A stretch of DNA of 64,000 bases. Source: Bacteroidota bacterium (GTDB taxonomy: Bacteria > Bacteroidota > Rhodothermia > JANXDC01). A program made the position numbers and the translations under genes. The stretch covers positions 1-64,000 of the forward strand of contig JANXDC010000005.1 in NCBI GenBank assembly GCA_025059945.1. Direction: 5' to 3'. The stretch's first letter is position 1, and the number at the start of each line of letters is the position of its first letter. The notes beneath the pieces were generated by a model. It made no database searches. It had not been told where the DNA came from and worked only from the letters and a program-made list of their open reading frames with translations. Positions 3,477 to 62,093 of this stretch are shown one piece after another.

Positions 3477-4286
3477 TTAAGGGTCCTCCCATCCGAAACG
3501 CACGCGCATGCCGCGTTTGTCCGGCTCGAAACGCAGCCAAAAGCGATCGGCGCGGCGCCAAGTCCACACATACGACCAATTCGGGCACTCTCCGGCACGG
3601 CAGATGGGCAGCTCATCGTGCAGGACTTCCATCGCGAAGAACACCACCTCCCCTTCAAGTCCCTCCAGGTTGCCATGAATATAGGAGAGGGTTTCGCCAA
3701 AGCGCCACCGGCAGAGCTGGCGCTGTGGCCGCAGACCCCTTTCAGCAAAAAGGCCTGAGACGAGCAGCCCGTCGAGCCGACTGAGCACGTCCAGAGACAC
3801 GGTGCGATCGGCTATGAGCGCGGCCCGCACGGTCCCCACAAGCAGCCGCCCCCCGTTGGGCAAAACCAGCCGAGGCCGAATCGGCAGCTGGGAGAGCACA
3901 TGCAGGTCCTCGTCGTACAGCAGCTGTCCGTATAGGTCGTGTACGAGCACGTCGATGGGTTCAGGCGCTTCGAAGTCCCGCAGGTCGGCCCGCAGAACGC
4001 GCACCTGGGGAAAAGCCCGCAGCCGCTCGCGGGCCAGCCCATACAGCAAGGGGTTGGACTCGACCGCGTACACGCGCCGAGCGCCCAAACGGGCCAGGTA
4101 GGCGCTAAAGATCCCCAGCCCGCAGCCGGCCTCCAGGCAGACGGCCCCTCGGATGCGATCCCTGTGTCGGCGCAGCAGGCGCTTGTAGGCCCACTCGCGA
4201 CGGCGATCGTCGTAGATGCTGATAAACGTCAGAAAGTCGTCGTACTCGGCAAACCGCTTCGGAGGCAGGTAATTGAGGATGTCCAT
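3477..4286 (-). CDS. SAM-dependent methyltransferase, PRMT-like Rossmann fold
   Basis: A class I methyltransferase of 269 residues. The SAM site is clear: motif I CLEAGCGLGIFSAYLARLGA at about residue 50, the acidic motif II in VYAVESNPL, then LRADLRDF. The substrate is not evident. The Glu-rich VHDLYGQLLYDEDL region and the later strands recall protein arginine methyltransferase-like proteins, which is only a suggestion. ATG at 4286 is chosen because it lies 7 bases after the stop of the DCC-family gene with AGGGG before it; an upstream extension to 4370 would overlap that gene. It sits in the Fe-S operon. Confidence 0.72.
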   Translation of the reverse strand: MDILNYLPPKRFAEYDDFLTFISIYDDRRREWAYKRLLRRHRDRIRGAVCLEAGCGLGIFSAYLARLGARRVYAVESNPLLYGLARERLRAFPQVRVLRADLRDFEAPEPIDVLVHDLYGQLLYDEDLHVLSQLPIRPRLVLPNGGRLLVGTVRAALIADRTVSLDVLSRLDGLLVSGLFAERGLRPQRQLCRWRFGETLSYIHGNLEGLEGEVVFFAMEVLHDELPICRAGECPNWSYVWTWRRADRFWLRFEPDKRGMRVRFGWEDP

Positions 4287-4293
4287 GGGACCC

Positions 4294-4653
4294 CTACAGG
4301 GGGCATTCGCACTGCGGTGCGGCACGACCCAGCCGGTATCGACGACGGGCGATGAACCGATAGAGGGCATCGCGCCAAGGTCGGGGGATCCAGCGACCTA
4401 GGGAGAAGACGCGCCACGGCCAGGGCAAAAGCCCCAGAACCCGGAAGACCGCCTCAGAGGCCGTCCATCGATGGCCCGCAAAGCGCACGATAAGGCTAGA
4501 CATCTTAGCCTGTTCTGCGGGGGCCAAAGTGGAGATCGGAACGAAGCGAAACCGCCCCGGCGCGCGGCGCTCTAGCCACCGGCGAAAGCTTGAGCACAAC
4601 GCGCAGCCATCGTCGTAGAACACCTCGGCGATCTTTAGCGGGGGCGTCTCCAT
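4294..4653 (-). CDS. DCC family thiol-disulfide oxidoreductase (DUF393)
   Basis: A 119-residue protein with the signature that names the DCC family: YDDGCALC near the N-terminus, with Cys17 and Cys20 forming a CxxC pair in a thioredoxin-like setting. A second family block, RFVPISTL, and the amphipathic VLGLLPWPWRVF/ALYRFIARRRYRL segments follow. A redox role on thiols is predicted for the family, but partners are not known. The start overlaps the DUF2480 gene by 19 bases, so the two are translated together. The CxxC chemistry and neighbours suggest a link to Fe-S or sulfur handling (inference). Confidence 0.82.
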   Translation of the reverse strand: METPPLKIAEVFYDDGCALCSSFRRWLERRAPGRFRFVPISTLAPAEQAKMSSLIVRFAGHRWTASEAVFRVLGLLPWPWRVFSLGRWIPRPWRDALYRFIARRRYRLGRAAPQCECPL

Positions 4654-5153
4654 AGGGGCACGGCGGAGCAGGGTTCCCCGTAGAGGAGTTTATCGCAGAC
4701 CGCAAGCAGCCGTTGGGTGGCCTCTACGTAGGCAGAGGCGGGCACATGGGGGCTGGCGCAGCCCCGGAGCACGACCTTGCGCCCGGCGTACTGGGCCCAA
4801 TCCACCTGGGCCAGGGCGCGCACGTAGTAGTCGCGCAGCAGCTCCTCGCGAGAGCCCAGGCAGATCGAGCGCGCGTAGGGGGCCAGATGCGCGCACAAAA
4901 GCGGGTAGGCCCACTGCGGCACGATGGCCGCTGTGGAGCAGTACAGGTGCACGTGATGGCCCGCATATTGGTTCCAGTCGTGCGCGGCCAGGGCCTGGCG
5001 AAACTCCCGCTCCCGTAATAAGAGCCCCATGTGCAGGAAGTCCCGCAGGTCTATGCCCGTAATAGGGGCCCCATCGAAGAGCGCCTCCAGGTCGAAGACG
5101 AGCAGCCCCGAGCGGGCCACGCGGTTTTGCGGTTCGGGCTCTAGGCGCGGCAA
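4635..5153 (-). CDS. DUF2480 family protein
   Basis: This 172-residue protein matches DUF2480, a family I know mainly from Bacteroidota: NRVARSGLLVFDLE at the start, LLREREFRQAL.HDW..Y in the middle, PQWAYPLL, and the closing VVLRGC block followed by VEATQRLL and YGEPCSAVPLW. The conserved cysteines in LRGC and GEPCS are present. Function is not established for the family. The start is an unusual TTG at 5153, supported by a strong GGGAGGGA site 5 bases upstream and by alignment of the family N-terminus. It lies 18 bases after the A-type carrier gene and overlaps the DCC gene. Confidence 0.85.
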   Translation of the reverse strand: MPRLEPEPQNRVARSGLLVFDLEALFDGAPITGIDLRDFLHMGLLLREREFRQALAAHDWNQYAGHHVHLYCSTAAIVPQWAYPLLCAHLAPYARSICLGSREELLRDYYVRALAQVDWAQYAGRKVVLRGCASPHVPASAYVEATQRLLAVCDKLLYGEPCSAVPLWRRPR

Positions 5154-5171
5154 GGCGTCCCTCCCGCTTTT

Positions 5172-5498
5172 TTAGACGGCGAAGGACTCTCCACAGGCGC
5201 AGGTGCGGGCTGCGTTGGGGTTTCGGAAGTGAAAGCCCTTGCCCTCTAGCCCGTCGGAGAAGTCCAGCTCGGATCCGGCCAAGTACAGGAAGCTGCGAAA
5301 ATCGACAAAAAGCCGAATCCCCTTGTCCTCGAACACCTGATCGTCGGGGCCCGCTGCGCACTCGAATTCCAGCTGATAGGTCAGCCCAGCGCATCCGCCG
5401 CCGATGATACGGACCCGAACGCCGTACTCGGGCCCCTTGCCCTCTTTTTCCCGGATCCTGCGGATCTGGGCTGCGGCGCGCTCGCTAACGGTGATCAT
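5172..5498 (-). CDS. A-type iron-sulfur cluster carrier (IscA/SufA/ErpA family)
   Basis: A 108-residue A-type carrier that receives and delivers Fe-S clusters to apoproteins. The three ligand cysteines are in place: Cys36 in GGGCAGLTY, and Cys100 and Cys102 in the TCACGESF tail. The internal LFVD..SFLYL.GSELDF block is also typical. ATG at 5498 gives the normal family length; the much longer frame upstream lies inside the desulfurase gene. It follows the desulfurase stop by 35 bases, so sulfur donor and carrier are co-expressed. Which subtype (IscA, SufA or ErpA) cannot be fixed from sequence by eye. Confidence 0.92.
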   Translation of the reverse strand: MITVSERAAAQIRRIREKEGKGPEYGVRVRIIGGGCAGLTYQLEFECAAGPDDQVFEDKGIRLFVDFRSFLYLAGSELDFSDGLEGKGFHFRNPNAARTCACGESFAV

Positions 5499-5533
5499 GT
5501 CCCCAGGACCTCGTCTTTTGAAGGACCGGTTTT

Positions 5534-6685
5534 TTACACCGAAGCCGCCGCAGCAAGTTCCGGCACCACGGCCGCAAAGCGGGCCTGGGCGAAGGCGATC
5601 TCCTCCGGCGTCGTAAAACGGCCCAAGCTGATCCGTATGGACTCGGTGGCCTCTTTTCCCGAAAGCCCCATCGCGCGCAGCACGTGACTGGGCAAGGAAA
5701 GGCCCGATGAACAGGCCGAACCCGTGGAGAAGGCCAGTTCGGGAAGAGCTCGAGCCAGTTGATCGTTGCGTATCCCCGGAAAACGGACGTTGAGCACGTG
5801 CGCAAGCCGGGGCTCGCGCGCCCCGTTGCGCTGCGCCCCCAGCGCCAGCAGGGCCTCCTCTAGCTGGTCGCGTAGCGCGCACAGTCGCATCGCTTCGGCC
5901 TCCATCTGCAGGCGGGCGATCTGGGCCGCATAGCCTAATCCGACGATGGCCGGGGTGTTGGGCGTGCCGCTTCGCAGCCCGCCTTCATGCCCGCCGCCGT
6001 GCAAGAGCGGTTCAATGCGGATCCCGCGCCGAACGTACAGAAAGCCCGCCCCCTTGGGGGCGTAGAACTTGTGCCCCGAGGCGGCCAGCAAGTCCACGCC
6101 CGTGCGCCGAACGTCGACGGGGATTTTGCCCACGGCTTGCGTGGCGTCCGTAAGCACGTACAAGCCGCGCGCGTGGGCGATCCGGACCACGTCCGCGATC
6201 GGGTAGATAAGCCCCGTTTCGTTGTTGGCCCACATGACAGCCACGAACAAGGTCTCAGGCCGCAGGGCGGCCTCCAGGGCTTGCAGATCGACATGCCCCT
6301 GCCGATCCACCCCCAGCACGGTCAGGGACCAGCCTTGGCGTTCCAGCCAGCGGCAGGCCTCTAGCACGGCCTTGTGCTCGGTGGCGATCGTAACGCAGTG
6401 CCGGCGCTCCGGATGCGCCCAGGCCAATCCCTTAATGGCCCAGTTTACGGCTTCTGTGGCCCCGGCCGTAAAGCAGATCTCCGCGGGATCGGCGTTGATG
6501 AGCTCCGCCACCTGGGCGCGCGCCCGCTCTATCGCCTCGGCGGCTACACGACCGAGGCGGTGCAGCCGGCTTGCGGGGTTGCCGAAATGCTCGCAGAAGT
6601 AGGGCCGCATGGCCTCCCAGACGCGGCTGTCGACGGGCGTGGTGGCGTTGTAGTCCAGGTACACAAGACAGTCCGCGTTGGCCAT
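5534..6685 (-). CDS. Cysteine desulfurase (NifS/IscS family)
   Basis: A 383-residue PLP enzyme that takes sulfur from cysteine for Fe-S clusters and other thio-cofactors. Visible catalytic residues are His104 (ATEHK), Asp180 and Gln183 (TDATQAVGK), the PLP lysine Lys206 (SGHKFYAPKG) and the active cysteine Cys325 in STGSACSSG. The length and the class I-type loop fit the NifS/IscS group and not SufS. It is the first gene of a six-gene minus-strand operon ending near 2817, with its own promoter at 6729-6757 and a hairpin in the leader at 6709-6728. Confidence 0.95.
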   Translation of the reverse strand: MANADCLVYLDYNATTPVDSRVWEAMRPYFCEHFGNPASRLHRLGRVAAEAIERARAQVAELINADPAEICFTAGATEAVNWAIKGLAWAHPERRHCVTIATEHKAVLEACRWLERQGWSLTVLGVDRQGHVDLQALEAALRPETLFVAVMWANNETGLIYPIADVVRIAHARGLYVLTDATQAVGKIPVDVRRTGVDLLAASGHKFYAPKGAGFLYVRRGIRIEPLLHGGGHEGGLRSGTPNTPAIVGLGYAAQIARLQMEAEAMRLCALRDQLEEALLALGAQRNGAREPRLAHVLNVRFPGIRNDQLARALPELAFSTGSACSSGLSLPSHVLRAMGLSGKEATESIRISLGRFTTPEEIAFAQARFAAVVPELAAAASV

Positions 6686-6708
6686 CTGGATCCCCCTTGT
6701 AAGTTGGG

Positions 6709-6728
6709 GTGAGCCTCTCCTTGCTCAC
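6709..6728 (-). promoter_or_regulatory. Hairpin in the leader of the Fe-S operon
   Basis: GTGAGC and GCTCAC form a 6-bp perfect stem around an 8-base loop containing AAGGAG. It lies between the predicted -10 (6729-6734) and the desulfurase start, close to the transcription start. It might be an operator or an RNA control element for Fe-S synthesis. No T-tract follows. Confidence 0.35.
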
Positions 6729-6757
6729 AAAATAGGGCTTAGATGGGCCGAATACAA
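6729..6757 (-). promoter_or_regulatory. Sigma70-like promoter of the Fe-S operon
   Basis: Minus-strand TTGTAT (6752-6757) and TATTTT (6729-6734) are 17 bases apart. They lie in the 85-base gap between the rfbC stop and the desulfurase start, so the Fe-S genes can be transcribed separately from the dTDP-sugar genes upstream. Confidence 0.5.
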
Positions 6758-6770
6758 CTAGGGACGGGGC

Positions 6771-7250
6771 TTAGTCCATTCGAAAAGGGCTCTCGGGATC
6801 GAGCTCATGCCGGATTTCATCGACCGGCTCGCTTCGACCCCAGCCTCGGTATAGGCGATTGGGACAGTTGATGATGAGGCCGTCTACAGATCCCACATTT
6901 CGGTAACCGTGCACCACACCCGGGGGCACGAAAAAGGCCAGCGGACGGCTTGCGCCGGCCAGCCAACGTTCCTGTTGTCCGTAGGCGGGCGATTCCGGCC
7001 GGTTATCCCAGAGCCGCACCTCGAAGTTGGAGGGCCCCGGAAAGCAGAACAGGTCCGCCTGCTCCCGGTGCTCGTGCGGCCCTCGGGCCACACCCGGACG
7101 GGTCACGGAAACGTAGGCCATCACGGGATAGGCGGCCGGATCGGCGAGCTCATCTTGCCGGAAGAGCTCCATGAGCCAGCCGCGCTCGTCTTCATATCGC
7201 ACAAGCTCCCAGACGCGCACCCCGGGAATGCGCGAACGCAGCTGCCGCAT
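6771..7250 (-). CDS. dTDP-4-dehydrorhamnose 3,5-epimerase-like protein (RmlC-type cupin)
   Basis: A 159-residue cupin of the RmlC superfamily. The recognisable parts are the N-terminal DERGWLMELFR, the ARGPHEH loop that carries the active-site histidine, the QADLFCF strand and the FVPPGVVHGYRN segment. The classical RGLH(F/Y)Q motif is altered to RGPHEHREQ, so it may act on another dTDP-sugar or be an isomerase of the same fold. Its ATG follows the rfbA stop codon with no base between, and it is third in the rfbB-rfbA-rfbC operon. A reductase (rfbD) is absent nearby. Confidence 0.72.
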   Translation of the reverse strand: MRQLRSRIPGVRVWELVRYEDERGWLMELFRQDELADPAAYPVMAYVSVTRPGVARGPHEHREQADLFCFPGPSNFEVRLWDNRPESPAYGQQERWLAGASRPLAFFVPPGVVHGYRNVGSVDGLIINCPNRLYRGWGRSEPVDEIRHELDPESPFRMD

Positions 7251-8027
7251 TTACGTTTCCCGCCCTTCGGATTGGCGTGCGTAGTAGGCCCAAAGCTCGG
7301 CGTCGTTCATGCGACCGGAGACGAGCTCGTTGGCCAGGTAGTAGGACTCGAAGGTGCCCGCGTCCGTCCACCACCCCTCCAGCACATCGTAGGTAAGCTC
7401 TCCCCACCGAATATAGGCGTTGTTGACGTCGGTGATCTCTAGCTCTCCGCGGGCGCTGGGCTTAAGGCCCCGGATGACGTCGAAGACGCGCGAGTCGTAA
7501 AAGTAGATGCCCGTAACGCAGAAGGAGGACTTGGGCGCAAGGGGCTTTTCCTCGATGCCCAGTATGCGGCCATCCGGGCCCAGTTCCGGCACCCCGTATC
7601 GGCTGGGGTCCGGCACCCGTTTGATCAAAATCTTGGCCCCCGAGGGCTGCATCCGATACCGCTCCGCGTAGGGCGCTAAGGAGGCCTCGAAGATGTTATC
7701 GCCTAGGATCACGACCATGCGGCTTGTTCCCACAAAGCCCTCGGCCAGCCCGAGCGCTTGCGCGATGCCGCCAGGCTCATCCTGCACCTTGTACGTAAAA
7801 CGGCAGCCGAACTCCCGACCGCTGCCCAGCAGCTGCACCACGTCGCCCATGTGTTCGGTTCCGGTGACGATCAGGATGTCCTCGATGCCGATCTCCCGAA
7901 GCTTCTCGATCGGGTAATAGATCATGGGCTTGCGGCCGACGGGCAGCAGGTGCTTGTTCGTGACCTTGGTCAGGGGATACAGCCGAGAACCTGTGCCGCC
8001 GGCCAGGACGATACCCTTAAGCTCCAT
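7251..8027 (-). CDS. rfbA: Glucose-1-phosphate thymidylyltransferase
   Basis: A 258-residue nucleotidyltransferase that makes dTDP-glucose from dTTP and glucose 1-phosphate. The signature GIVLAGGTGSRLYPLT (residues 5-20) with PVGRKPMIYYPIEKL, the metal-binding LGDNIFE and the EEKP motif are all visible. It is shorter than the approximately 290-residue E. coli RmlA and so belongs to the short form common in many phyla; related enzymes use UTP, so the sugar base is inferred partly from the adjacent dehydratase. It overlaps the rfbB gene by 11 bases and has GGAAG before its ATG. Confidence 0.9.
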   Translation of the reverse strand: MELKGIVLAGGTGSRLYPLTKVTNKHLLPVGRKPMIYYPIEKLREIGIEDILIVTGTEHMGDVVQLLGSGREFGCRFTYKVQDEPGGIAQALGLAEGFVGTSRMVVILGDNIFEASLAPYAERYRMQPSGAKILIKRVPDPSRYGVPELGPDGRILGIEEKPLAPKSSFCVTGIYFYDSRVFDVIRGLKPSARGELEITDVNNAYIRWGELTYDVLEGWWTDAGTFESYYLANELVSGRMNDAELWAYYARQSEGRET

Positions 8028-9099
8028 AGGCTCTTCCCTCGGCGATGCGTTGGGCGTATTGACGCGCGTAGTATTCGCGGTAGGCTCCGCTGGTTACGCG
8101 CTCTAGCCAATCCTGGTTGGCCAGATACCAACGGATAGTCTCCCGAAGCGCCTCCGCAAACGCATAACGCGGCCGCCAGCCCAGCTCCCGCTCCAGCTTG
8201 CTCGGATCGATTGCGTAACGCCGATCATGCCCGGGCCGATCGGGCACAAAGCGAATCAGAGAGCGGCCCATACCCGGCGGACGGCCCAGTTCCGCATCGA
8301 GCAAATCGCAGAGCAGCTCCACAAGGTCGCGATTGCGCCACTCGTTGCGCGCCCCCACGTTGTAGGTTTGCCCCACGCGGCCGGCGTGGTAGATCAGCTC
8401 GATGGCCGCTACGTGGTCGCGCACGTAGATCCAATCCCGCACGTTTTCGCCGCTTCCGTAGATGGGCAGGGGCTCAAGCCGGATCAAGTTACGGATCATA
8501 AGCGGAATGAGCTTCTCCGGAAACTGGTACGGACCGAAGTTGTTGGAGCAGTTCGAGATCACCACCGGAAGCCCGTACGTATGATGCCAAGCCCGCACCA
8601 GATGGTCGCTAGCGGCCTTGGAGGCCGCATAGGGGCTCGTAGGCCGGTAGGGGCTTTCCTCGGTAAAATAGCCTGTCGGCCCCAGGGAGCCATAGACCTC
8701 ATCGGTTGAGATGTGATAGAAGCGCACTTCGTTCTCGGAGCGCCCTTCCCAATGCCGCTGGGCCACCTTGAGGAGCGTGAGCGTGCCCAGAACGTTCGTG
8801 TGCAAAAAGGCGTCGGGCTCTAAAATCGAACGATCTACGTGCGATTCGGCCGCCAGATGGATGACGCCGGTTAGGCCGAAGTCCCGGAAAAGCCGATCGA
8901 TGAGCTCAGCATCCGCCACGTCGCCTCGGACGAAGACGTAGTTGGGGGCTGATTCTATGGGGCGCAGGTTCTCCAGGTTGCCTGCGTAGGTGAGCTTGTC
9001 GAGGTTCACAAACAGATAATCCGGATACCGGGGTACGAGCTCAAGCAAAAGGTTGGAGCCGATAAAGCCCGCACCACCGGTAACGAGAATACGTCGCAT
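8017..9099 (-). CDS. rfbB: dTDP-glucose 4,6-dehydratase
   Basis: A 360-residue extended short-chain dehydrogenase that converts dTDP-glucose to dTDP-4-keto-6-deoxyglucose with bound NAD. The GGAGFIGSN nucleotide site is at residues 8-16, with HLAAESHVDRSI, the STDEVYGSLG block with the active-site Thr-Asp-Glu, and YAASKAASD carrying the catalytic Tyr and Lys. Length and motifs are standard. It is the first gene of the minus-strand dTDP-sugar operon and is divergent from the aldolase gene across a 133-base gap. Confidence 0.95.
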   Translation of the reverse strand: MRRILVTGGAGFIGSNLLLELVPRYPDYLFVNLDKLTYAGNLENLRPIESAPNYVFVRGDVADAELIDRLFRDFGLTGVIHLAAESHVDRSILEPDAFLHTNVLGTLTLLKVAQRHWEGRSENEVRFYHISTDEVYGSLGPTGYFTEESPYRPTSPYAASKAASDHLVRAWHHTYGLPVVISNCSNNFGPYQFPEKLIPLMIRNLIRLEPLPIYGSGENVRDWIYVRDHVAAIELIYHAGRVGQTYNVGARNEWRNRDLVELLCDLLDAELGRPPGMGRSLIRFVPDRPGHDRRYAIDPSKLERELGWRPRYAFAEALRETIRWYLANQDWLERVTSGAYREYYARQYAQRIAEGRAYGA

Positions 9100-9164
9100 A
9101 GGGGGCTCCCGTCTCCCGGGCGTGTGCTATTTACGCACGTCCGAGCCTGGCTGTCCAGTCGAAC

Positions 9165-9193
9165 TTGGCAGTTTCGCGCGTAGGGTCTATTTT
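9165..9193 (+). promoter_or_regulatory. Sigma70-like promoter for the aldolase operon
   Basis: TTGGCA (9165-9170) and TATTTT (9188-9193) with a 17-base spacer. The predicted start near 9200 leaves a short leader that contains GGGAGG (from about 9219) before the aldolase ATG at 9233. Confidence 0.6.
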
Positions 9194-9232
9194 TGGGCTG
9201 TAGAAACCGACGCAGAAAGGGAGGTTTAGGTC

Positions 9233-10315
9233 ATGTCGACGCTTGAAGTGCGCACCGACACGCTAGACGGCATCGTCCAGCTGCTGGGCGATCAGGCTGA
9301 GTATTTGCTAGGGCATGTCTGTCAGACGGTTCCCAAGGAGATGCTGCATCTGCCCGGACCGGACTTCGTGGATCGGGTTTGGGCCAACTCGGATCGCAAC
9401 AACCGCGTCCTGCGCAGCCTGCAGGCGCTTTTCGGGCATGGCAGGCTAGCGGGCACCGGATATCTGTCGATTTTGCCTGTAGACCAAGGGGTAGAGCATT
9501 CCGGCGGCGCCTCTTTTGCCCCCAATCCCCTGTACTTTGACCCCGAGAACATCATACGCCTGGCCCTTGAGGGCGGCTGCAACGCGGTGGCCTCCACTTT
9601 TGGGGTGCTCGGCGCCGTGGCGCGCCAATACGCGCACAAGATCCCCTTTATCGTGAAGATCAATCACAACGAGCTGCTTACCTATCCCAACAAGTACGAT
9701 CAGATCCTCTTTGGCACGGTCGAGCAGGCCTATGAAATGGGCGCTGTGGCCGTGGGGGCGACCGTTTACTTCGGCTCCGAGGAATCAAGCCGCCAGATTC
9801 AAGAGATCGCGGAGGTCTTCGCCTACGCGCACGAGCTCGGCATGGCCACGGTTTTGTGGTGCTATCTGCGCAATGCGGCCTTCAAAAAAGACGGGATCGA
9901 CTATCACACGGCGGCCGATCTGACCGGACAGGCCAATCACCTGGGCGCCACGCTGCAGGCGGATATCATCAAGCAAAAGCTGCCCACGACCAACGGCGGC
10001 TATACGGCACTCAACTTCGGCCGCACGCACAAAAAAGTCTACGAGGCGCTCACCTCTGAGCACCCAATCGACCTGTGCCGCTATCAGGTGGTGAACAATT
10101 ACATGGGCCGCGTGGGGCTTATCAACTCCGGCGGGGAATCCAAGGGGGCAAGCGATCTAGCGGAGGCGGTTTGGACGGCCGTCGTCAACAAGCGCGCTGG
10201 CGGCATGGGCTTGATCTCGGGCCGCAAGGCCTTCCAACGCCCCATGGAGGAGGGCATCCGGCTTCTGCACGCGATCCAGGACGTGTACCTGAATCCCGAA
10301 ATCACCGTGGCCTAG
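9233..10315 (+). CDS. fbaB: Fructose-bisphosphate aldolase class I (FbaB/DhnA type)
   Basis: A 360-residue DeoC/FbaB-type class I aldolase, which cleaves fructose 1,6-bisphosphate through a lysine Schiff base. Family features are [18 protein letters not shown] (residues 78-95), the [12 protein letters not shown] strand, the Lys in ADIIKQK near residue 247 as the likely Schiff-base lysine, and the C-terminal NSGGESKG phosphate loop. No zinc-binding class II motif is present. A GGGAGG site lies before the ATG. It is followed after one base by the BtpA-like gene, so the two are certainly co-transcribed. Confidence 0.92.
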
Positions 10316-10316
10316 G

Positions 10317-11144
10317 GTGACGCACGCAGAACAAGCGCGGCCCGTGCTGGGGCTGGAGCGCCCGGTCTTCGGCATGGTGCACCTGAAACCGCTTCCCGGA
10401 AGCCCCCGCTACGGAGGGTCCGTGGCGGCCATCCTGGAGGCCGCGCTGCAAGACGCCGAGGCGCTCATCACAGGCGGCGTCGACGGGCTAATGGTCGAGA
10501 ACTTCGGCGATATCCCCTTTCTCAAGTCCCAGATTCCGCCCGAGGCGCTTGCCGTGATGCGGGAGGTGCTGCGCGCCTTAAGGGAACGCTTTTCCTGCCC
10601 GATTGGGGTGAACGTGCTGCGCAACGACGCGCTGGCCGCCTTGGAGCTGGCCACCGCCTGCGGAGCGCAGTTTATTCGGGTCAACGTCTACGTGGGCGCC
10701 CGCCTGACCGATCAGGGCCTGATCGAGGGGTGCGCGGCCCATGTGCAACGCCGCAAAGCCGAACTGGGCAGCCCGGTGCAGATCTTCGCGGACGTGAACG
10801 TAAAACACTCCGTTCCCATCGGCCCCTATGGCGTCGAGCAAGAAGCCCAAGACGCGGCCGAACGCGGGCTGGCCGACGCTTTGTTGGTTACGGGCACGGC
10901 TACGGGACAAGCGGCGGAGCTAGCCGAACTGCGACGCGTACGAGAATCCACATCCCGGCCTGTGCTCGTCGGCAGCGGCCTTAGCCCTGAGAACTTGCCG
11001 CACTTCTTCCCCCAAGCCGACGGCTTTATTGTGGGCACCTGCTTTAAGCGTGGCCGACGTCCGGAGGCCCCCGTCGAGGTGGAGCGGGTGGCGCACTTTA
11101 TGGAGGTGATTGCTCGTCTGCGACGGCTGTACGCTCAGCCCTGA
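10317..11144 (+). CDS. BtpA/SgcQ family TIM-barrel protein
   Basis: A 275-residue member of the BtpA family. The opening [19 protein letters not shown], then [14 protein letters not shown], and later [18 protein letters not shown] and [12 protein letters not shown] blocks match the whole family length. BtpA was named for a role in photosystem I assembly in cyanobacteria, but many non-phototrophs carry it, and the beta/alpha-barrel with a phosphate-loop-like GSGLS end suggests a sugar-phosphate or nucleoside enzyme. The start is GTG one base after the aldolase stop. Co-expression with aldolase supports a carbohydrate role here (inference). Its 3' end overlaps the convergent phosphatase gene by 10 bases. 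Confidence 0.85.
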
Positions 11145-11803
11145 TAGGGCACCTGCACCAGGCGCCGCTCGGGCAGATACAAGCCCGTAAGCCGACCCAG
11201 TCCGGGCACGGCCGCGTACACGCAGCCCGTATCGAGACCGATGCGCCGCTCCTCTAATAAGGGCTCCGGAAGCGGTGTGTGCCCGAATACAACCGGCTTT
11301 TCCCAGACCAGCGCCTCATGGGGGACCTTTAGATGCTCTCGCGACCACAGCCAGAGCTCCGGATCGGGGTTTTCCAGATGCCATGCGATGGATCGCTCTG
11401 GACGCAGGCCCCCATGGACAAAAAAGTACTCGGCCGTATCGTAGTACAGTCGCGTGCGGCCCACCAGATCGATATGAGCCTCGGGGAAGTACAGTCGGCC
11501 GTAGCGGGCTTGATAGGAGCGCCAGGTGGACTCCGCGCCGTTGAGCCCCCACAGCACCGGATCGCCGTCTTGCCAGTACTCGAGCATGAGTTGTTCGTGG
11601 TTGCCCCTTAAGAGCACTAGATCCGGCCGCTGACGCTCTAAGTCCGCGAGAAACTCCAACACACCGGCCGGATCGGGGCCACGGTCGATGTAATCCCCCA
11701 GAAAGACCAGCACGCGATCCGGCTCCGGCTGGGCCCGATCTAAGAGGGCTTTGAGCGTCCGCAGGCAACCATGCACGTCGCCAATGACGAAGTATTTATT
11801 CAT
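11135..11803 (-). CDS. Metallophosphatase, PP2A/ApaH-like serine/threonine phosphatase family
   Basis: A 222-residue calcineurin-like phosphoesterase with the full metal-site order: GDVHG (residues 8-12), GDYIDRGPD, RGNHE, then HGG and GHTP. Together they bind two metal ions and hydrolyse phosphoesters; members dephosphorylate proteins or split Ap4A-type dinucleotides, and sequence alone does not choose between these. It shares a four-base ATGA overlap with the nusB stop, so it is translated with NusB, and its end overlaps the BtpA gene. Confidence 0.88.
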   Translation of the reverse strand: MNKYFVIGDVHGCLRTLKALLDRAQPEPDRVLVFLGDYIDRGPDPAGVLEFLADLERQRPDLVLLRGNHEQLMLEYWQDGDPVLWGLNGAESTWRSYQARYGRLYFPEAHIDLVGRTRLYYDTAEYFFVHGGLRPERSIAWHLENPDPELWLWSREHLKVPHEALVWEKPVVFGHTPLPEPLLEERRIGLDTGCVYAAVPGLGRLTGLYLPERRLVQVPYQG

Positions 11804-12270
11804 TCCGGAGAGGTCTCAATAAGCCCCCGACCCGTTTTGCGCAGCTGGCCCGTGGTGCGCAACTCCTCCAGAATGCTATCCAGGACACCATTAACGAATC
11901 GGTGGCTTTCCTCCGTACTGAAGCGCTTGACTAGCTCGATAGCCTCGTCCAGGGAGACCTTGGGGGGAATATCCTCGAAATAGAGCAACTCCGCGATCGC
12001 CATACGCAACGCAACGCGGTCGATGACGGCGATGCGCTCCAAATCCCAGTTCGTCGCATGCCGGCTGATGTAGCGGTCCAGCACCTCCAGGTGCTCAAGA
12101 ACGCGCCGATAAAGCCTCTGGGCAAACTCGAGCCCTATCGGATCATGCTGAAGACGGGAGGCGATGAGGTCTTGGTAAACGTAGACGGGATCCTGGCGAC
12201 CCACCTCGTAGGCGTATAGCGCCTGTAGGACGAGTTCCCGCAACGCGTGACGATCTAAGAGTTCTGGCAT
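11800..12270 (-). CDS. nusB: Transcription antitermination factor NusB
   Basis: A 156-residue NusB, which with NusE (S10) binds boxA RNA for rRNA antitermination. The all-helical pattern is typical: RHALRELVLQALYAYE at the start, then the diagnostic NWDLERIAVIDRVALRMAIAELLYFEDIPPKVSLDEAIELVKRFS region and FVNGVLDSI. ATG at 12270 gives the usual N-terminus; a GTG at 12300 would add ten residues with no better ribosome site. It follows the amino-acid dehydrogenase by 37 bases and overlaps the phosphatase start. Confidence 0.93.
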   Translation of the reverse strand: MPELLDRHALRELVLQALYAYEVGRQDPVYVYQDLIASRLQHDPIGLEFAQRLYRRVLEHLEVLDRYISRHATNWDLERIAVIDRVALRMAIAELLYFEDIPPKVSLDEAIELVKRFSTEESHRFVNGVLDSILEELRTTGQLRKTGRGLIETSPE

Positions 12271-12307
12271 GCCGCATCCCGCTACCCAAAGGGAGGGCAC
12301 AGATAGC

Positions 12308-13465
<1,158 letters not shown>

Positions 13466-37965: not shown

Positions 37966-38038
37966 AGAGTTGGTTTTCCGGTTAGGGGCTCCGAACTTAG
38001 GGCGGCTTGCCTTTTTTGCGCAAACCTCGGAAGGACCT

Positions 38039-38581
38039 ATGCCCCAACCCTGGCAGGTGCTAAAGCGCCGCTATCTTGTTCGGCGTTGGTGGATGAACGT
38101 GCGCGTAGATCGGCTTCGGCTGCCCAGCGGAGCCGAAATCGCGGAGTTTCACGTGATCGAGCAGCCGGACTTCGCCAACGTGCTGGCCATCACTCCGACG
38201 GGGGAAGCGGTCTTGCTGGAGACCTATCGGCACGGCATGGGCGAAATCGCCCTGGAGCTTCCGGGCGGTGTGGTGGACCCAGGAGAGACGCCCCTGGAGG
38301 CCGCACGGCGCGAGCTGCGCGAGGAGACGGGCTACGAGGCCGAAGCGTGGCTCCCTCTGGGGCGCGTAGCGCTCAACCCCCACACGCACACAAACTGGGT
38401 CCATCTGTTTCTGGCCCGCGGCGCACGGGCCACTTCGAGCGCAAAACGCGATCCGATGGAGGATTTCAGGCTTGAGCTCGTGCCGGCGCACGCGCTGCCG
38501 AAACTCGTCGAACAAGGCCGCATCATCCAGGCCACCATGGTGAGCGCCATCTTCTGGGCCGCTTACCGGGGGCTGCTCTGA
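38039..38581 (+). CDS. Nudix hydrolase (ADP-sugar pyrophosphatase-like)
   Basis: A 180-residue Nudix enzyme. The complete box GX5EX7REUXEEXGU is seen in GGVVDPGETPLEAARRELREETGYEA at about residues 76-101. The N-terminal PQPWQVLKRRYLVRRWWMNVRVDRLRLPSG and the LALGxxxPN(P/H)xxH-like end fit ADP-ribose/ADP-sugar pyrophosphatases. The substrate is inferred from family resemblance only. ATG at 38039 follows a clear AAGGA; an in-frame GTG/ATG region upstream to 37970 lacks such a site. It is divergent from mscS and followed by the cytochrome gene 44 bases on. Confidence 0.88.
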   Translation: MPQPWQVLKRRYLVRRWWMNVRVDRLRLPSGAEIAEFHVIEQPDFANVLAITPTGEAVLLETYRHGMGEIALELPGGVVDPGETPLEAARRELREETGYEAEAWLPLGRVALNPHTHTNWVHLFLARGARATSSAKRDPMEDFRLELVPAHALPKLVEQGRIIQATMVSAIFWAAYRGLL

Positions 38582-38625: not shown

Positions 38626-40656
38626 GTGCGCTGCACCGCAAGCCAGCCTATCGGCCTGTTGGGCTTGCTCTTTCTGCTTTGGGCGGGCTGCCGGGGAGCG
38701 CAACCCGATGCACCCCCGGAAAGCGTAGATGCGTTCGTGGGGGATTCGGTCTGCGCCTCTTGCCACGGCGATATCGCGGCCCTGTACCGGCGCACCCCCA
38801 AGGCGCAGGCCCTCTACCGGCTCGCCCCGGATCGGGTGGTGGAGGATCTCAGCGGCCAAGAGGCCGTCTATGAGCCCCGAACGGGGTTTTACTACCGTGC
38901 CTTCCGTCAGGGAGATGCGTTTTTTCAGGAGGAATACCGGCTAGATGCCCGAGGCCGCAAAACGCATCGGCTCGTCTATCCCATGCAATACGTGGTGGGC
39001 TCGGGCAACGCCGCGCGCACATACCTATACGAGGAAAACGGATACCTCTTCCAGCTGCCCCTGAGCTGGTATGCGCAGAGCGGCCGCTGGGGCCTAAGCC
39101 CAGGCTATGAGCGGGCCAACGCGCGTTTTTTCCGCCCAATCCGGCAGGCTTGCCTGGGCTGCCACACGGGCCATTTTAGGCCTGTTCCGGAGACGAGCAA
39201 TCGATACGAGGCCTTTAGCCTGGGCATCGGCTGCGAACGCTGCCACGGACCGGGGGCACGACATGTGGCCCTGCACCGAGGGGGCAAGCGGTCCAGAAGC
39301 GGACCCGACACCACGATCCTCAACCCCCGGCGTATTCCCCCGGAGCGGCGCCTGGACCTCTGCCAACAATGCCATCTGGAGACAACCGTATCCTTCTATC
39401 GGGAGGGCAAAGGGCCGCTGGACTACCGACCGGGTCGGAGGCTTTCGGATTACTGGGTCGCCTTCGTCGACTCTGCCCTTTCGGCGAGCACGGTGCAGGT
39501 CGCAAGCCATGTGGAGCGCATGCAGCAGAGCGCCTGTTTCCGAGGCAGCCGAGGGCGGCTGGATTGCCTGAGCTGTCATGACGCGCATCGCGCAAGCCGC
39601 GAATTAGGTCCGGAGCACTTCAACCGGATCTGTCAGGGCTGTCACGACCTCGGGCGCCTCTCGCGGGGCCCGCTCGCCGCCACGCACGGGCCTGAGGCCC
39701 CGTGTACTTCCTGCCACATGCCCCGGATCCGGCCCAGCGCCGTGCCCCATGCGGCCTTCACGGATCACGCCATCCCGCGCCGACCCGATCGGCCCCCCTC
39801 CGGGACACCTCCGCCCCAGAGGACCAGCGGGCAGCTTACGCCGGTCTTCGCGGAACTCAGGCGGGATCCGGCTTATCCGGTCTACGAGGGCATCGCCTAT
39901 CTTGCCTACGCCCGCGAACATCCCGAAACGAGGGCCCTAGAGCGGGCCATCGACCGCCTGCTGCGCGGGCTACGGGAGGTCCCCGGCCATGCCGAAGGAT
40001 GGTACCTGCTGGGATACGCCTACGAATGGCGGGGTGAGCGAAGCCGGGCTCGCGCGGCCTACGCCCGGGCCGCGGCGCTTGAGCCCACAGCGGAGCGGCT
40101 GCTGGCCCTGGCGCGCCTGGCGGAATGGGACGGAGACTGGAAGGAAGCGGAACGGTGCTATCAAGAGGCGCTACGACGCCAGCCCGAGCTTCCGGAGGCG
40201 CTCACGAACCTGGGCCGGCTTTTGGAGCTGAAAGGACGCCTTGCGGAGGCGCGCACCTGTTACGAACAGGCCGTGCGCCTGCGGCCCAGCTTAGCGGAGG
40301 CGCGCTTCAACCTCGGCACTTTGCTTGTTCGGCTGGGAGCGCCCCAAGAGGCCGAAGCGCACCTTCGGCGGGCTGTTGCGCTAGAGCCCGATTACGCCAA
40401 GGCGCGCAACAATTTGGCCGTTCTGCTCGCCCAAACGGGCCGCCTTCAGGAGGCCATCGCCGAATGGGAGGAGGTGGTGCGCCTGGAGCCGGCGCATGCG
40501 GACGCGCTTTTCAATCTGGCCCTCGCCTACGCGCAAAACGGCCGGCTGCGCGAGGCCCGCAGGATGGCGGAGCGCTTTCTGCAGCGCTACCCCGATGAGC
40601 CCCGATCCGATCGGCTGCGCGCCCTGTTGGGGGGCTCCTCCTCCGGATCCCAGTGA
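38626..40656 (+). CDS. Seven-heme c-type cytochrome lipoprotein with C-terminal TPR domain
   Basis: A 676-residue lipoprotein: lipobox WAGC gives Cys22. Seven CxxCH sites are seen in order: CASCH (Cys43), CLGCH, CERCH, CQQCH, CLSCH, CQGCH and CTSCH, all within the first 370 residues, so the protein binds seven hemes c outside the cytoplasm. From about residue 405 onward it carries a run of TPRs (YEWRGERSRARAAYARAAALEP, then LEPDYAKARNNLAVLLAQTGRLQEAIAEWEEVV). The first half resembles NapC/cytochrome c554-type multiheme proteins. It may pass electrons to a TPR-bound partner. The GTG start at 38626 is the best lipoprotein start. Confidence 0.88.
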   Translation: MRCTASQPIGLLGLLFLLWAGCRGAQPDAPPESVDAFVGDSVCASCHGDIAALYRRTPKAQALYRLAPDRVVEDLSGQEAVYEPRTGFYYRAFRQGDAFFQEEYRLDARGRKTHRLVYPMQYVVGSGNAARTYLYEENGYLFQLPLSWYAQSGRWGLSPGYERANARFFRPIRQACLGCHTGHFRPVPETSNRYEAFSLGIGCERCHGPGARHVALHRGGKRSRSGPDTTILNPRRIPPERRLDLCQQCHLETTVSFYREGKGPLDYRPGRRLSDYWVAFVDSALSASTVQVASHVERMQQSACFRGSRGRLDCLSCHDAHRASRELGPEHFNRICQGCHDLGRLSRGPLAATHGPEAPCTSCHMPRIRPSAVPHAAFTDHAIPRRPDRPPSGTPPPQRTSGQLTPVFAELRRDPAYPVYEGIAYLAYAREHPETRALERAIDRLLRGLREVPGHAEGWYLLGYAYEWRGERSRARAAYARAAALEPTAERLLALARLAEWDGDWKEAERCYQEALRRQPELPEALTNLGRLLELKGRLAEARTCYEQAVRLRPSLAEARFNLGTLLVRLGAPQEAEAHLRRAVALEPDYAKARNNLAVLLAQTGRLQEAIAEWEEVVRLEPAHADALFNLALAYAQNGRLREARRMAERFLQRYPDEPRSDRLRALLGGSSSGSQ

Positions 40657-60687: not shown

Positions 60688-61725
60688 CTAGGGGCGCGCC
60701 ACCTGGATCGGGTCGCCGTAGCAGAACCGCTCCGAGGGGCTCCAGTAACGCTCCCGGATCCGCTTCCAGACGGCATGGGCGGTGTTGAAGGCGTAGATGA
60801 TAGAGCCCCCCTTCATGTTCGCGCACAGATCCCCCACCAAGAACAGACCCGGCTGGTTGGTCTCGAAGGCCTCATCCAGGACGGGCGTTTTATCTTGAAA
60901 GGCGATGCCGGCCGAACGCAGGAAGTTCTCCGGGGTCGTGCCCCCTAAGGCGTAGACGATGTGATCGAAAACGGGCTGATCGAACTCCGGCTCTGCAAAC
61001 ACGACCCGGGGCCGTCCGTCCGGGGTCGGCTCCAGGCGTGTGATGTTGGAGCCGAGCCAAAGCCGGATACGGCCCTCGGCGGCCAGGCGCAGGACCGCCT
61101 CCCGGTTTTGCTCCAGCATGCGCACGATCTGCTTGCGCCTATAGGAGAGCGTGACCCGGCAGCCGTCCTGCGCTAGGTACTGCACGTACTCGCCGGCTGA
61201 ATCGCCTCCGCCTACGACGAGCACCTCCAGGCCGGGTTCGGGCTTCCAGGAGGTCAGATCAAAATGCACGCGCGCCTTGAGCGCCCCCGGGATGGGGTAA
61301 TCCGGCTTGTTCGGACGCCCGAATATGCCGATTGCAATGGCCACCAGACGGGCTCGATACTCGCCTTTCGTAGACTGTACGAGGTATCCACCCTGGGACC
61401 AAGGCCGGATAGCCCAGACCTCCTCTGCATATCGGATCGGGACTTGGTACTGAGCTATGAGCCGATCAAAGAAGGCGATCGTATCCGCTTTGCTCATGTC
61501 CTCGATCGTCAGCAAGCCCCGGGCCTCGGCCGTGTAGCCTTTGTAATTAGCGGTCGTGAGCTTGTTGTCCGGATACAAGGCCCGAATCGACCAGATGGGC
61601 TGCTCGGCCTTCTCTAAAACAAGCAGTCGGTCTCGAGGGAACCCTCCCTGTAGGGCTTCTACGGCCAGCCCCAGACCACCCGGACCAGCCCCCACGATCA
61701 GCAGATCGCAATCGAACTGCGTCAT
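60688..61725 (-). CDS. FAD/NAD(P)-dependent oxidoreductase, thioredoxin-reductase-like without CxxC
   Basis: A 345-residue flavoprotein. The FAD site is LLIVGAGPGGLGLAVEAL (residues 8-25), the NAD(P) site is LEVLVVGGGDSAGEYVQYLA (near 160), and PGLFLVGDLC with a closing GGSIIYAFNTAHAVW binds the FAD ribityl. No CxxC disulfide is present, so it is not a true thioredoxin reductase; it resembles ferredoxin-NADP+ reductases or YpdA-type disulfide reductases. ATG at 61725 has GGGAG before it and an ATGA overlap with the yraN stop. The Nfu-type and YraN genes upstream form its operon. Confidence 0.83.
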   Translation of the reverse strand: MTQFDCDLLIVGAGPGGLGLAVEALQGGFPRDRLLVLEKAEQPIWSIRALYPDNKLTTANYKGYTAEARGLLTIEDMSKADTIAFFDRLIAQYQVPIRYAEEVWAIRPWSQGGYLVQSTKGEYRARLVAIAIGIFGRPNKPDYPIPGALKARVHFDLTSWKPEPGLEVLVVGGGDSAGEYVQYLAQDGCRVTLSYRRKQIVRMLEQNREAVLRLAAEGRIRLWLGSNITRLEPTPDGRPRVVFAEPEFDQPVFDHIVYALGGTTPENFLRSAGIAFQDKTPVLDEAFETNQPGLFLVGDLCANMKGGSIIYAFNTAHAVWKRIRERYWSPSERFCYGDPIQVARP

Positions 61726-62093
61726 GACATCTCCCACAGCGCATCTTCGAGGTGTTCGATACTGGGTTGCCCTCCGGGGGGCCATACGATGGCGAGGATA
61801 TCAAAGCGAATCGGAGCCCCCCACATCCGACGCTCCTGCAACCAGGCTTGCGCCACACGGTACAACTGCCTCTGCTTATGGGCCGTGACGGCCTCCTCCG
61901 GATAGCCCATATCGAGTGAGGCGCGCGTTTTAACCTCTACGAACACGATCTCGCGCCCGTCGGTGGCCACCAGATCGACCTCAGCCCGCTCAAAGCGGTA
62001 GTTGCGATCCAGAATGCGCCAGCCCTTGCGCTCCAAGTATGCCGCCGCAAGCGCTTCGCCCTGGCGGCCCAGCTCCCGGGGATTGCGCCTCAT
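61722..62093 (-). CDS. YraN family (UPF0102) endonuclease-like protein
   Basis: A 123-residue protein with the full UPF0102 pattern: ELGRQGEALAAAYLERKGWRIL at the start, the nuclease core EVDLVATDGREIVFVEVKTR (Asp and Glu-x-Lys) and the closing GAPIRFDILAI. It has a restriction-endonuclease-like fold, and members occur in most genomes with little known function. The gene is sandwiched by two ATGA overlaps, with the Nfu gene before and the flavin reductase after. Confidence 0.9.
   Translation of the reverse strand: MRRNPRELGRQGEALAAAYLERKGWRILDRNYRFERAEVDLVATDGREIVFVEVKTRASLDMGYPEEAVTAHKQRQLYRVAQAWLQERRMWGAPIRFDILAIVWPPGGQPSIEHLEDALWEMS

Follow-up and report, generated by a model that had tools for sequence, protein, structure and literature searches.

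The heptaheme-TPR gene and its surroundings

The window, by which we mean the whole stretch of 64,000 nucleotides that was analyzed, contains at 38626..40656 on the forward strand an open reading frame of 676 amino acids with a GTG start (stop codon included in the coordinates). The preliminary description of this DNA had read it as a cytochrome with seven CxxCH sites in one half, TPR repeats in the other and a lipobox at its start, and had named a frameshift among the findings that would speak against it. The frame was found to be single and intact with no internal stop codon, ruling out a frameshift or a pseudogene, and the other parts of that description held: the seven CxxCH motifs begin at residues 43, 176, 203, 246, 314, 336, and 360 and all lie between residues 43 and 364; the TPRs lie within the last 260 residues, where Pfam TPR_2 matched six stretches above its cut-off (118 bits) and a superhelix was modeled; and a lipobox, LWAGC, is present with its Cys at residue 22. 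The features of the locus are as follows.

37970..38581 (+): NUDIX hydrolase gene, 44 bp upstream of the cytochrome gene, possibly co-transcribed
38626..40656 (+): heptaheme-TPR lipoprotein gene (predicted; ORF conserved in 127/127 aligned relatives)
38626..38691 (+): signal peptide and lipobox LWAGC, residues 1-22 (called from the sequence and the aligned Cys in relatives, without a dedicated predictor)
38752..38766 (+): heme motif 1, CASCH, residues 43-47 (aligned in 136/136)
38800..38802 (+): Lys59, the Met/His/Lys position, proposed axial ligand (M 111, H 16, K 9 of 136)
38812..39096 (+): beta subdomain between hemes 1 and 2, residues 63-157 (predicted models)
39151..39165 (+): heme motif 2, CLGCH, residues 176-180 (aligned in 136/136)
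39232..39246 (+): heme motif 3, CERCH, residues 203-207 (sequence; PF13435 match at 173-208)
39361..39375 (+): heme motif 4, CQQCH, residues 246-250 (sequence; aligned in relatives)
39565..39579 (+): heme motif 5, CLSCH, residues 314-318 (sequence; PF09699 match at 313-341)
39631..39645 (+): heme motif 6, CQGCH, residues 336-340 (sequence; aligned in relatives)
39703..39717 (+): heme motif 7, CTSCH, residues 360-364 (sequence; aligned in relatives)
39874..40587 (+): TPR superhelix, residues 417-654 (Pfam, model, and matches to TPR structures)

Cys22 was aligned with a Cys in 44/44 sequences of the class set and in 114/127 sequences of a wider set, a count affected by several uncertain called starts; a strict lipobox pattern matched 78 of the 127. 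By the criterion of a signal peptide with a lipobox Cys, the window protein is a bacterial lipoprotein, with lipidation predicted. A scan for promoters and terminators around the gene returned nothing above shuffled controls that bears on it.

In G001, the only genome of the same genus that we found, the ortholog likewise has an ORF ahead of it on its own strand. This ortholog (L021:8584-10615) is divided into two frames within a C-rich run; both parts are conserved (70% and 62% identity to the window protein), and the split may be a real mutation or a sequencing error. In the window, no redox or reductase gene adjoins the cytochrome gene, as had been observed before: the neighbors are the NUDIX gene and, on the opposite strand, MscS-type, S58 peptidase, and SDH-protease genes. 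Positions 60688-61785 (-), 20 kb off, encode a pyridine-nucleotide oxidoreductase, which we take to be YpdA-like; in many loci of Rhodothermales, a homolog stands immediately beside the heptaheme gene.

The window genome, from a bacterium of hot-spring type (a 2.14-Mb assembly in 16 contigs), carries a second copy of the gene (L041, about 149.9-152.0 kb of contig C1), which has seven motifs and falls in a different clade of the tree. TGA codons in the match to this paralog had raised the suspicion of a selenoprotein, an idea that was rejected, as the paralog is an intact 702-aa frame and the match overran its end. The genome also contains cytochrome c assembly genes (two PF01578 matches) and three COX1 genes, the latter suggesting that the organism probably respires oxygen. 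Searches of this genome for NapC/NrfH and NrfA (PF03264, PF02335) gave no match, with a positive E. coli control, and a search for a P460-like gene, run without a positive control, gave none.

Conservation of the heme motifs and of position 59

When residues 1-400 were shuffled 20,000 times, no shuffle contained more than two CxxCH motifs, ruling out a chance origin of the seven. All seven were aligned in 127/127 TPR-type relatives, though this set had been preselected for at least seven CxxCH and more than 400 aa, so that full retention there partly reflects selection, and in 9/9 TPR-less relatives from Bacteroidia (L146-L154), which were hand-picked from the phylum domain-profile matches; the total is thus 136/136. 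The class set, selected for at least six CxxCH, likewise had the seven motifs aligned in 44/44 sequences. The 127 sequences include 123 distinct ones, some loci having been fetched twice (L038/L068, L040/L066, L044/L071), and L118, in which the cytochrome is split across two ORFs, was left out. Four of the 127 have an eighth CxxCH. The eight-CxxCH relatives L054, L055, L056, and L057 form a separate branch with Ser in place of Cys at 304 and Ile at 295.

Outside the motifs, His213, His321, and His381 are invariant (136/136). Cys304 is present in 132/136 sequences, including 9/9 of the TPR-less ones, whereas His375 is found in 121/127 TPR-type and 0/9 TPR-less sequences. His114 and His295 were set aside as distal ligands, being absent from 28 and 17 of the 127 relatives, respectively. 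Residue 59, which lies 12 residues after the His of heme 1, showed a different pattern: among the 136 sequences, 111 have Met here, 16 have His, and 9 have Lys, and none has anything else. Lys is found in the window protein and its genus, and the TPR-less relatives have His; the most parsimonious history on the FastTree phylogeny (127 sequences) has seven changes of identity, and a profile alignment places a His at this position in both OcwA and cytochrome c554. Because the position is restricted to side chains that bind iron, residue 59 is best read as a putative distal axial ligand, to one of the hemes, whose identity would have switched.

Predicted structure and the TPR arm

Three alignments were built, with 30 of 43 class sequences (A1), 57 of 79 sequences (A2), and 69 of 83 sequences (A3), each with the window protein added, and structures were predicted with AlphaFold2. 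The whole-protein model (58 sequences) had a mean pLDDT of 88.9 and a pTM of 0.87. In the C-terminal part it showed an N-terminal helix pair, then six regular TPR helix pairs (456-654), and then a capping helix. A fold search with the whole protein returned TPR structures only, among them the TPR pilotins PilF and PilW, and the heme domain was therefore modeled separately (70 sequences; pLDDT 86.6, pTM 0.85). In the models, the subdomain inserted between hemes 1 and 2 is mostly beta.

The predicted heme domain resembles OcwA and OmhA

A profile search of solved structures ranked 6i5b first (E 1.8e-18), followed by 6r2q, c554, 6qvm, MccA, and NrfA. Structural comparison of the predicted model gave the same first match: OcwA was aligned over 297 residues (Z 16.3, rmsd 3.9, 21% identity) and OmhA (6qvm) over 244 residues (Z 12.3, rmsd 4.1), followed by MccA (Z 8.8), NrfA-type proteins (5.6), and c554 (5.0). 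Foldseek also returned OcwA (E 4e-10), with the next protein at 4e-3. As modeled, the fold of the heme domain is thus like that of OcwA and OmhA, two extracellular terminal reductases of the kind by which some microbes deliver electrons to minerals, and the match is well above those to MccA, NrfA, and cytochrome c554. Within the NrfA/HAO/c554 superfamily, the predicted domain is most like the OcwA/OmhA branch.

OcwA, a cell-surface nonaheme terminal reductase of Thermincola potens (PDB 6I5B), matches over nearly the whole heme domain, and a profile alignment gives a similar order of heme motifs. OcwA is reported to carry nine hemes, two of which (hemes 2 and 5) are open on the distal side close to HH281/282 and HH380/381; it contains a three-helix bundle and acts on shuttles as well as on nitrite and hydroxylamine (PMC6703420). 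OcwA and OmhA are classed as terminal reductases (PMC6703420, PMC12203936). The window protein differs in having seven hemes and a TPR arm where OcwA has nine and a C-terminal three-helix bundle, and in having a lipobox and a diderm host. The aligned stretch, including that of heme 2, has no His-His pair of the OcwA kind; Arg298, which is Arg in 112/127 relatives, lies near the aligned place. From the alignment, hemes 1-4 would pair with the hemes of the same number in OcwA, and the likeliest counterparts of hemes 5-7 are OcwA hemes 6-8, because CxxCHxxH and CHMP then align; a second alignment block had a different register. With this assignment, OcwA hemes 5 and 9 and the helix bundle would be missing, and the TPR arm would stand in the place of the bundle.

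OmhA of Carboxydothermus ferrireducens (PDB 6QVM), the second structural match, is an S-layer undecaheme protein of a Gram-positive organism, with eleven hemes and, to our knowledge, no TPR. Cytochrome c554 of Nitrosomonas europaea is likened to the window protein by a PF13435 match (29.9 bits against a cut-off of 20.8), a CxxCHGPG motif, and an alignable N-terminal CxxCH, but it is much smaller (a solved chain of 211 residues), lacks TPRs, and matched weakly in structure; the NCBIfam equivalog for c554 (NF043010) scored 33.2 of 400 bits, below its cut-off. The octaheme sulfite reductase MccA, third in rank, and the NrfA-type nitrite reductases belong to the same superfamily but differ in heme number, and the NrfA active-site CxxCK is absent from the window protein, whose seven motifs are all CxxCH. 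Scores for the decaheme families DmsE (40.4 bits, NCBIfam cut-off 192.2) and GSU2203 (58.4 bits, cut-off 325) were too low, and the window protein has seven motifs, not ten. The TPR-less heptaheme lipoproteins of Bacteroidia share the seven motifs and Cys304 with it (9/9) but are about 400 aa long and have no TPR arm; we found no published name for them.

Family spread and gene neighbors in relatives

Among 394 sampled genomes of the phylum, 125 matched the domain profile, many of them weakly; by manual count, about 31 of the same-class genomes among those listed had E below 1e-100. A pattern scan of GTDB genomes, in which the alignment query was productive and a single-protein query gave no match, confirmed at least 532 relatives, the best 80 of which come from Bacteroidetes (including Rhodothermales), Calditrichia, Marinimicrobia, Ignavibacteria, Gemmatimonadetes, and Planctomycetes. 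The heptaheme-TPR fusion is a large and widespread family, not a local oddity. In a literature search covering titles and the openings of abstracts, we recognized no paper describing it.

We then considered the genes beside the cytochrome in these relatives. Genes were called with a simple longest-ORF script, which overlooked real ones beneath antisense ORFs (L027, L028), a defect repaired with tblastn for the TonB/T9SS-tail/PorV trio only, and the counts below are raw counts from a phylum where TonB and SusCD genes are common. The clade holding the best matches of the window protein (tree support 0.997) comprises 32 distinct loci by manual count, several of which end at contig edges. T9SS-tail and PorV-family genes lie upstream on the same strand in 14 of the 32 (L025-L028, L030, L031, L034, L040, L059, L060, L062, L064, L065, L070), with PorV within roughly 200 bp of the cytochrome gene in about 11 of these. 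A TonB receptor is present in 13 of the 14, the exception being L027, where the contig ends first. The window pair itself falls outside the clade, where the node has weak support (0.37). In the window genome, the trio lies at about 259-267 kb of contig C4 without a cytochrome, followed by a GWxTD-domain gene, and another T9SS-tail/PorV pair lies on C15. In the extracted C4 locus (L145, C4:255500-275300), the TonB receptor, T9SS-tail, PorV-family, and GWxTD-domain genes stand in a row at 3640-12752.

Other clades have other neighbors. In a sister clade, a P460-like lipoprotein with a single CxxCH is encoded directly downstream in 4 of about 11 loci; its P460 score, 21.9 bits, falls short of the Pfam cut-off of 27. 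The four genes are:

L085:12017-13057: P460-like lipoprotein gene
L043:7993-8943: P460-like lipoprotein gene
L045:7937-8995: P460-like lipoprotein gene
L092:7773-8975: P460-like lipoprotein gene

At the G001 locus L038, the order is TonB (SusC-like)-SusD-lipoprotein-lipoprotein-cytochrome. Part of the nine TPR-less loci have SusCD, UnbV/FG-GAP, and PAP2-type genes nearby, and Bacteroidia relatives have housekeeping neighbors, for instance tyrS and mltG. At L151:10629-13528 and L153:6632-9522, TPR-less heptaheme genes stand beside a PAP2-type gene (presumably haloperoxidase-like), a one-CxxCH FG-GAP protein, and a long VCBS-like protein. A clade-C heptaheme-TPR paralog in G001 (L046:7855-10904) overlaps by 4 bp a VIT1-domain gene with a weak rubrerythrin match, a possible link to iron. 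Homologs with the same fusion, which the preliminary description had proposed to look for together with their neighbors, are numerous, and the candidate partner genes near some of them are TonB/T9SS-tail/PorV, SusCD, or P460-like genes.

Possible function in the cell envelope

The reading that we prefer, with a probability of about one half, is that the gene encodes a member of the OcwA/NrfA/HAO/c554 superfamily with seven hemes, a lipid anchor, and a TPR docking arm, and that this cytochrome transfers electrons in the envelope to a partner or an extracellular acceptor. After export, the protein would receive a lipid at Cys22, and the cytochrome c maturation machinery of the cell itself would attach its seven hemes. 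In the outer envelope, electrons would pass from heme to heme and then to a docked outer-membrane partner or to an acceptor that is a mineral or a small molecule, while the TPRs would tether the cytochrome to an envelope complex, for which the TonB receptor/T9SS-tail/PorV genes of relatives are the candidate module. Placement at the outer membrane is suggested by the lipobox and by gene linkage; heme occupancy, the direction of electron flow, the TPR partner, and the acceptor are proposals. Because the heme domain is OcwA/OmhA-like, the cytochrome could itself be a terminal reductase, and a separate reductase would not be required. The preliminary description had proposed an electron carrier that docks on a partner; this fits as a putative role, but the terminal-reductase possibility and the candidate partner genes had been missed.

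In favor of the envelope electron-transfer reading are the seven motifs in 136/136 sequences, the structural match to OcwA and OmhA, the PorV/T9SS-tail linkage, and the genome's own heme-assembly genes and trio. Against it, the protein has only seven hemes, lacks the C-terminal bundle of OcwA, and shows no His-His pair in the aligned stretch; many relatives belong to ordinary-looking Bacteroidota genomes with no sign of mineral respiration in this analysis; the three COX1 genes make oxygen respiration probable in the organism itself; and in the window genome the trio is unlinked to the cytochrome and a similar T9SS-tail/PorV pair occurs elsewhere, with the window pair outside the operon-bearing clade.

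The same observations bear on three other readings. The protein might convert or remove nitrite, hydroxylamine, or NO at a reactive heme, for instance heme 2, as c554, OcwA, and HAO relatives are able to do. The Pfam Cytochrome_C554 match above cut-off, the P460-like neighbors in the sister clade, and the reported reduction of nitrite and turnover of hydroxylamine by OcwA (PMC6703420) all agree with this, but the sub-threshold P460 score, the missing P460-like gene in the window genome (in the search without positive control), the lack of CxxCK, and the absence of the NrfA and NapC/NrfH families from that genome lead us to think it unlikely. A role in outer-membrane import, in which the cytochrome would reduce a ligand or metal such as iron for TonB or SusCD uptake, or feed electrons to surface oxidative enzymes, would account for the TonB-T9SS-PorV linkage, the SusC-SusD-lipoprotein-lipoprotein order in G001, the SusCD, UnbV/FG-GAP, and PAP2-type genes near TPR-less relatives, and the overlap with the VIT1/rubrerythrin-like gene. 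TonB and SusCD genes are common in the phylum, however, and the linkage varies between clades, down to tyrS and mltG in Bacteroidia, so that we doubt this role too. That the TPRs are the main function, as in envelope assembly lipoproteins, with hemes that merely sense redox state or stabilize the protein, is in our view very improbable: the TPR half is well modeled and pilotins are among its matches, but the heme half is the conserved part, and the retention of seven motifs in 9/9 TPR-less relatives argues that the hemes are not accessory.

We know of no accepted extracellular electron-transfer machinery in Bacteroidota or Rhodothermota. Multiheme cytochromes themselves are already known; what is new here is the likeness to OcwA and OmhA, the Met/His/Lys position, and the PorV/T9SS-tail linkage. 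As a conserved lipoprotein that joins a predicted OcwA-like fold to a TPR arm and is present in at least 532 genome stretches, the protein is a concrete candidate for extracellular electron transfer, with partners that can be tested. We suggest, tentatively and with more doubt than conviction, that the diderm Rhodothermia and many Bacteroidota may have an OcwA-type outer-membrane conduit of their own, a heptaheme terminal reductase held by a lipid anchor, docked through TPRs on a TonB/T9SS/PorV surface complex and tuned in potential by an axial ligand near heme 1 that changes between Met, His, and Lys in evolution. The Met/His/Lys position would offer a natural series for how an axial ligand sets heme potential.
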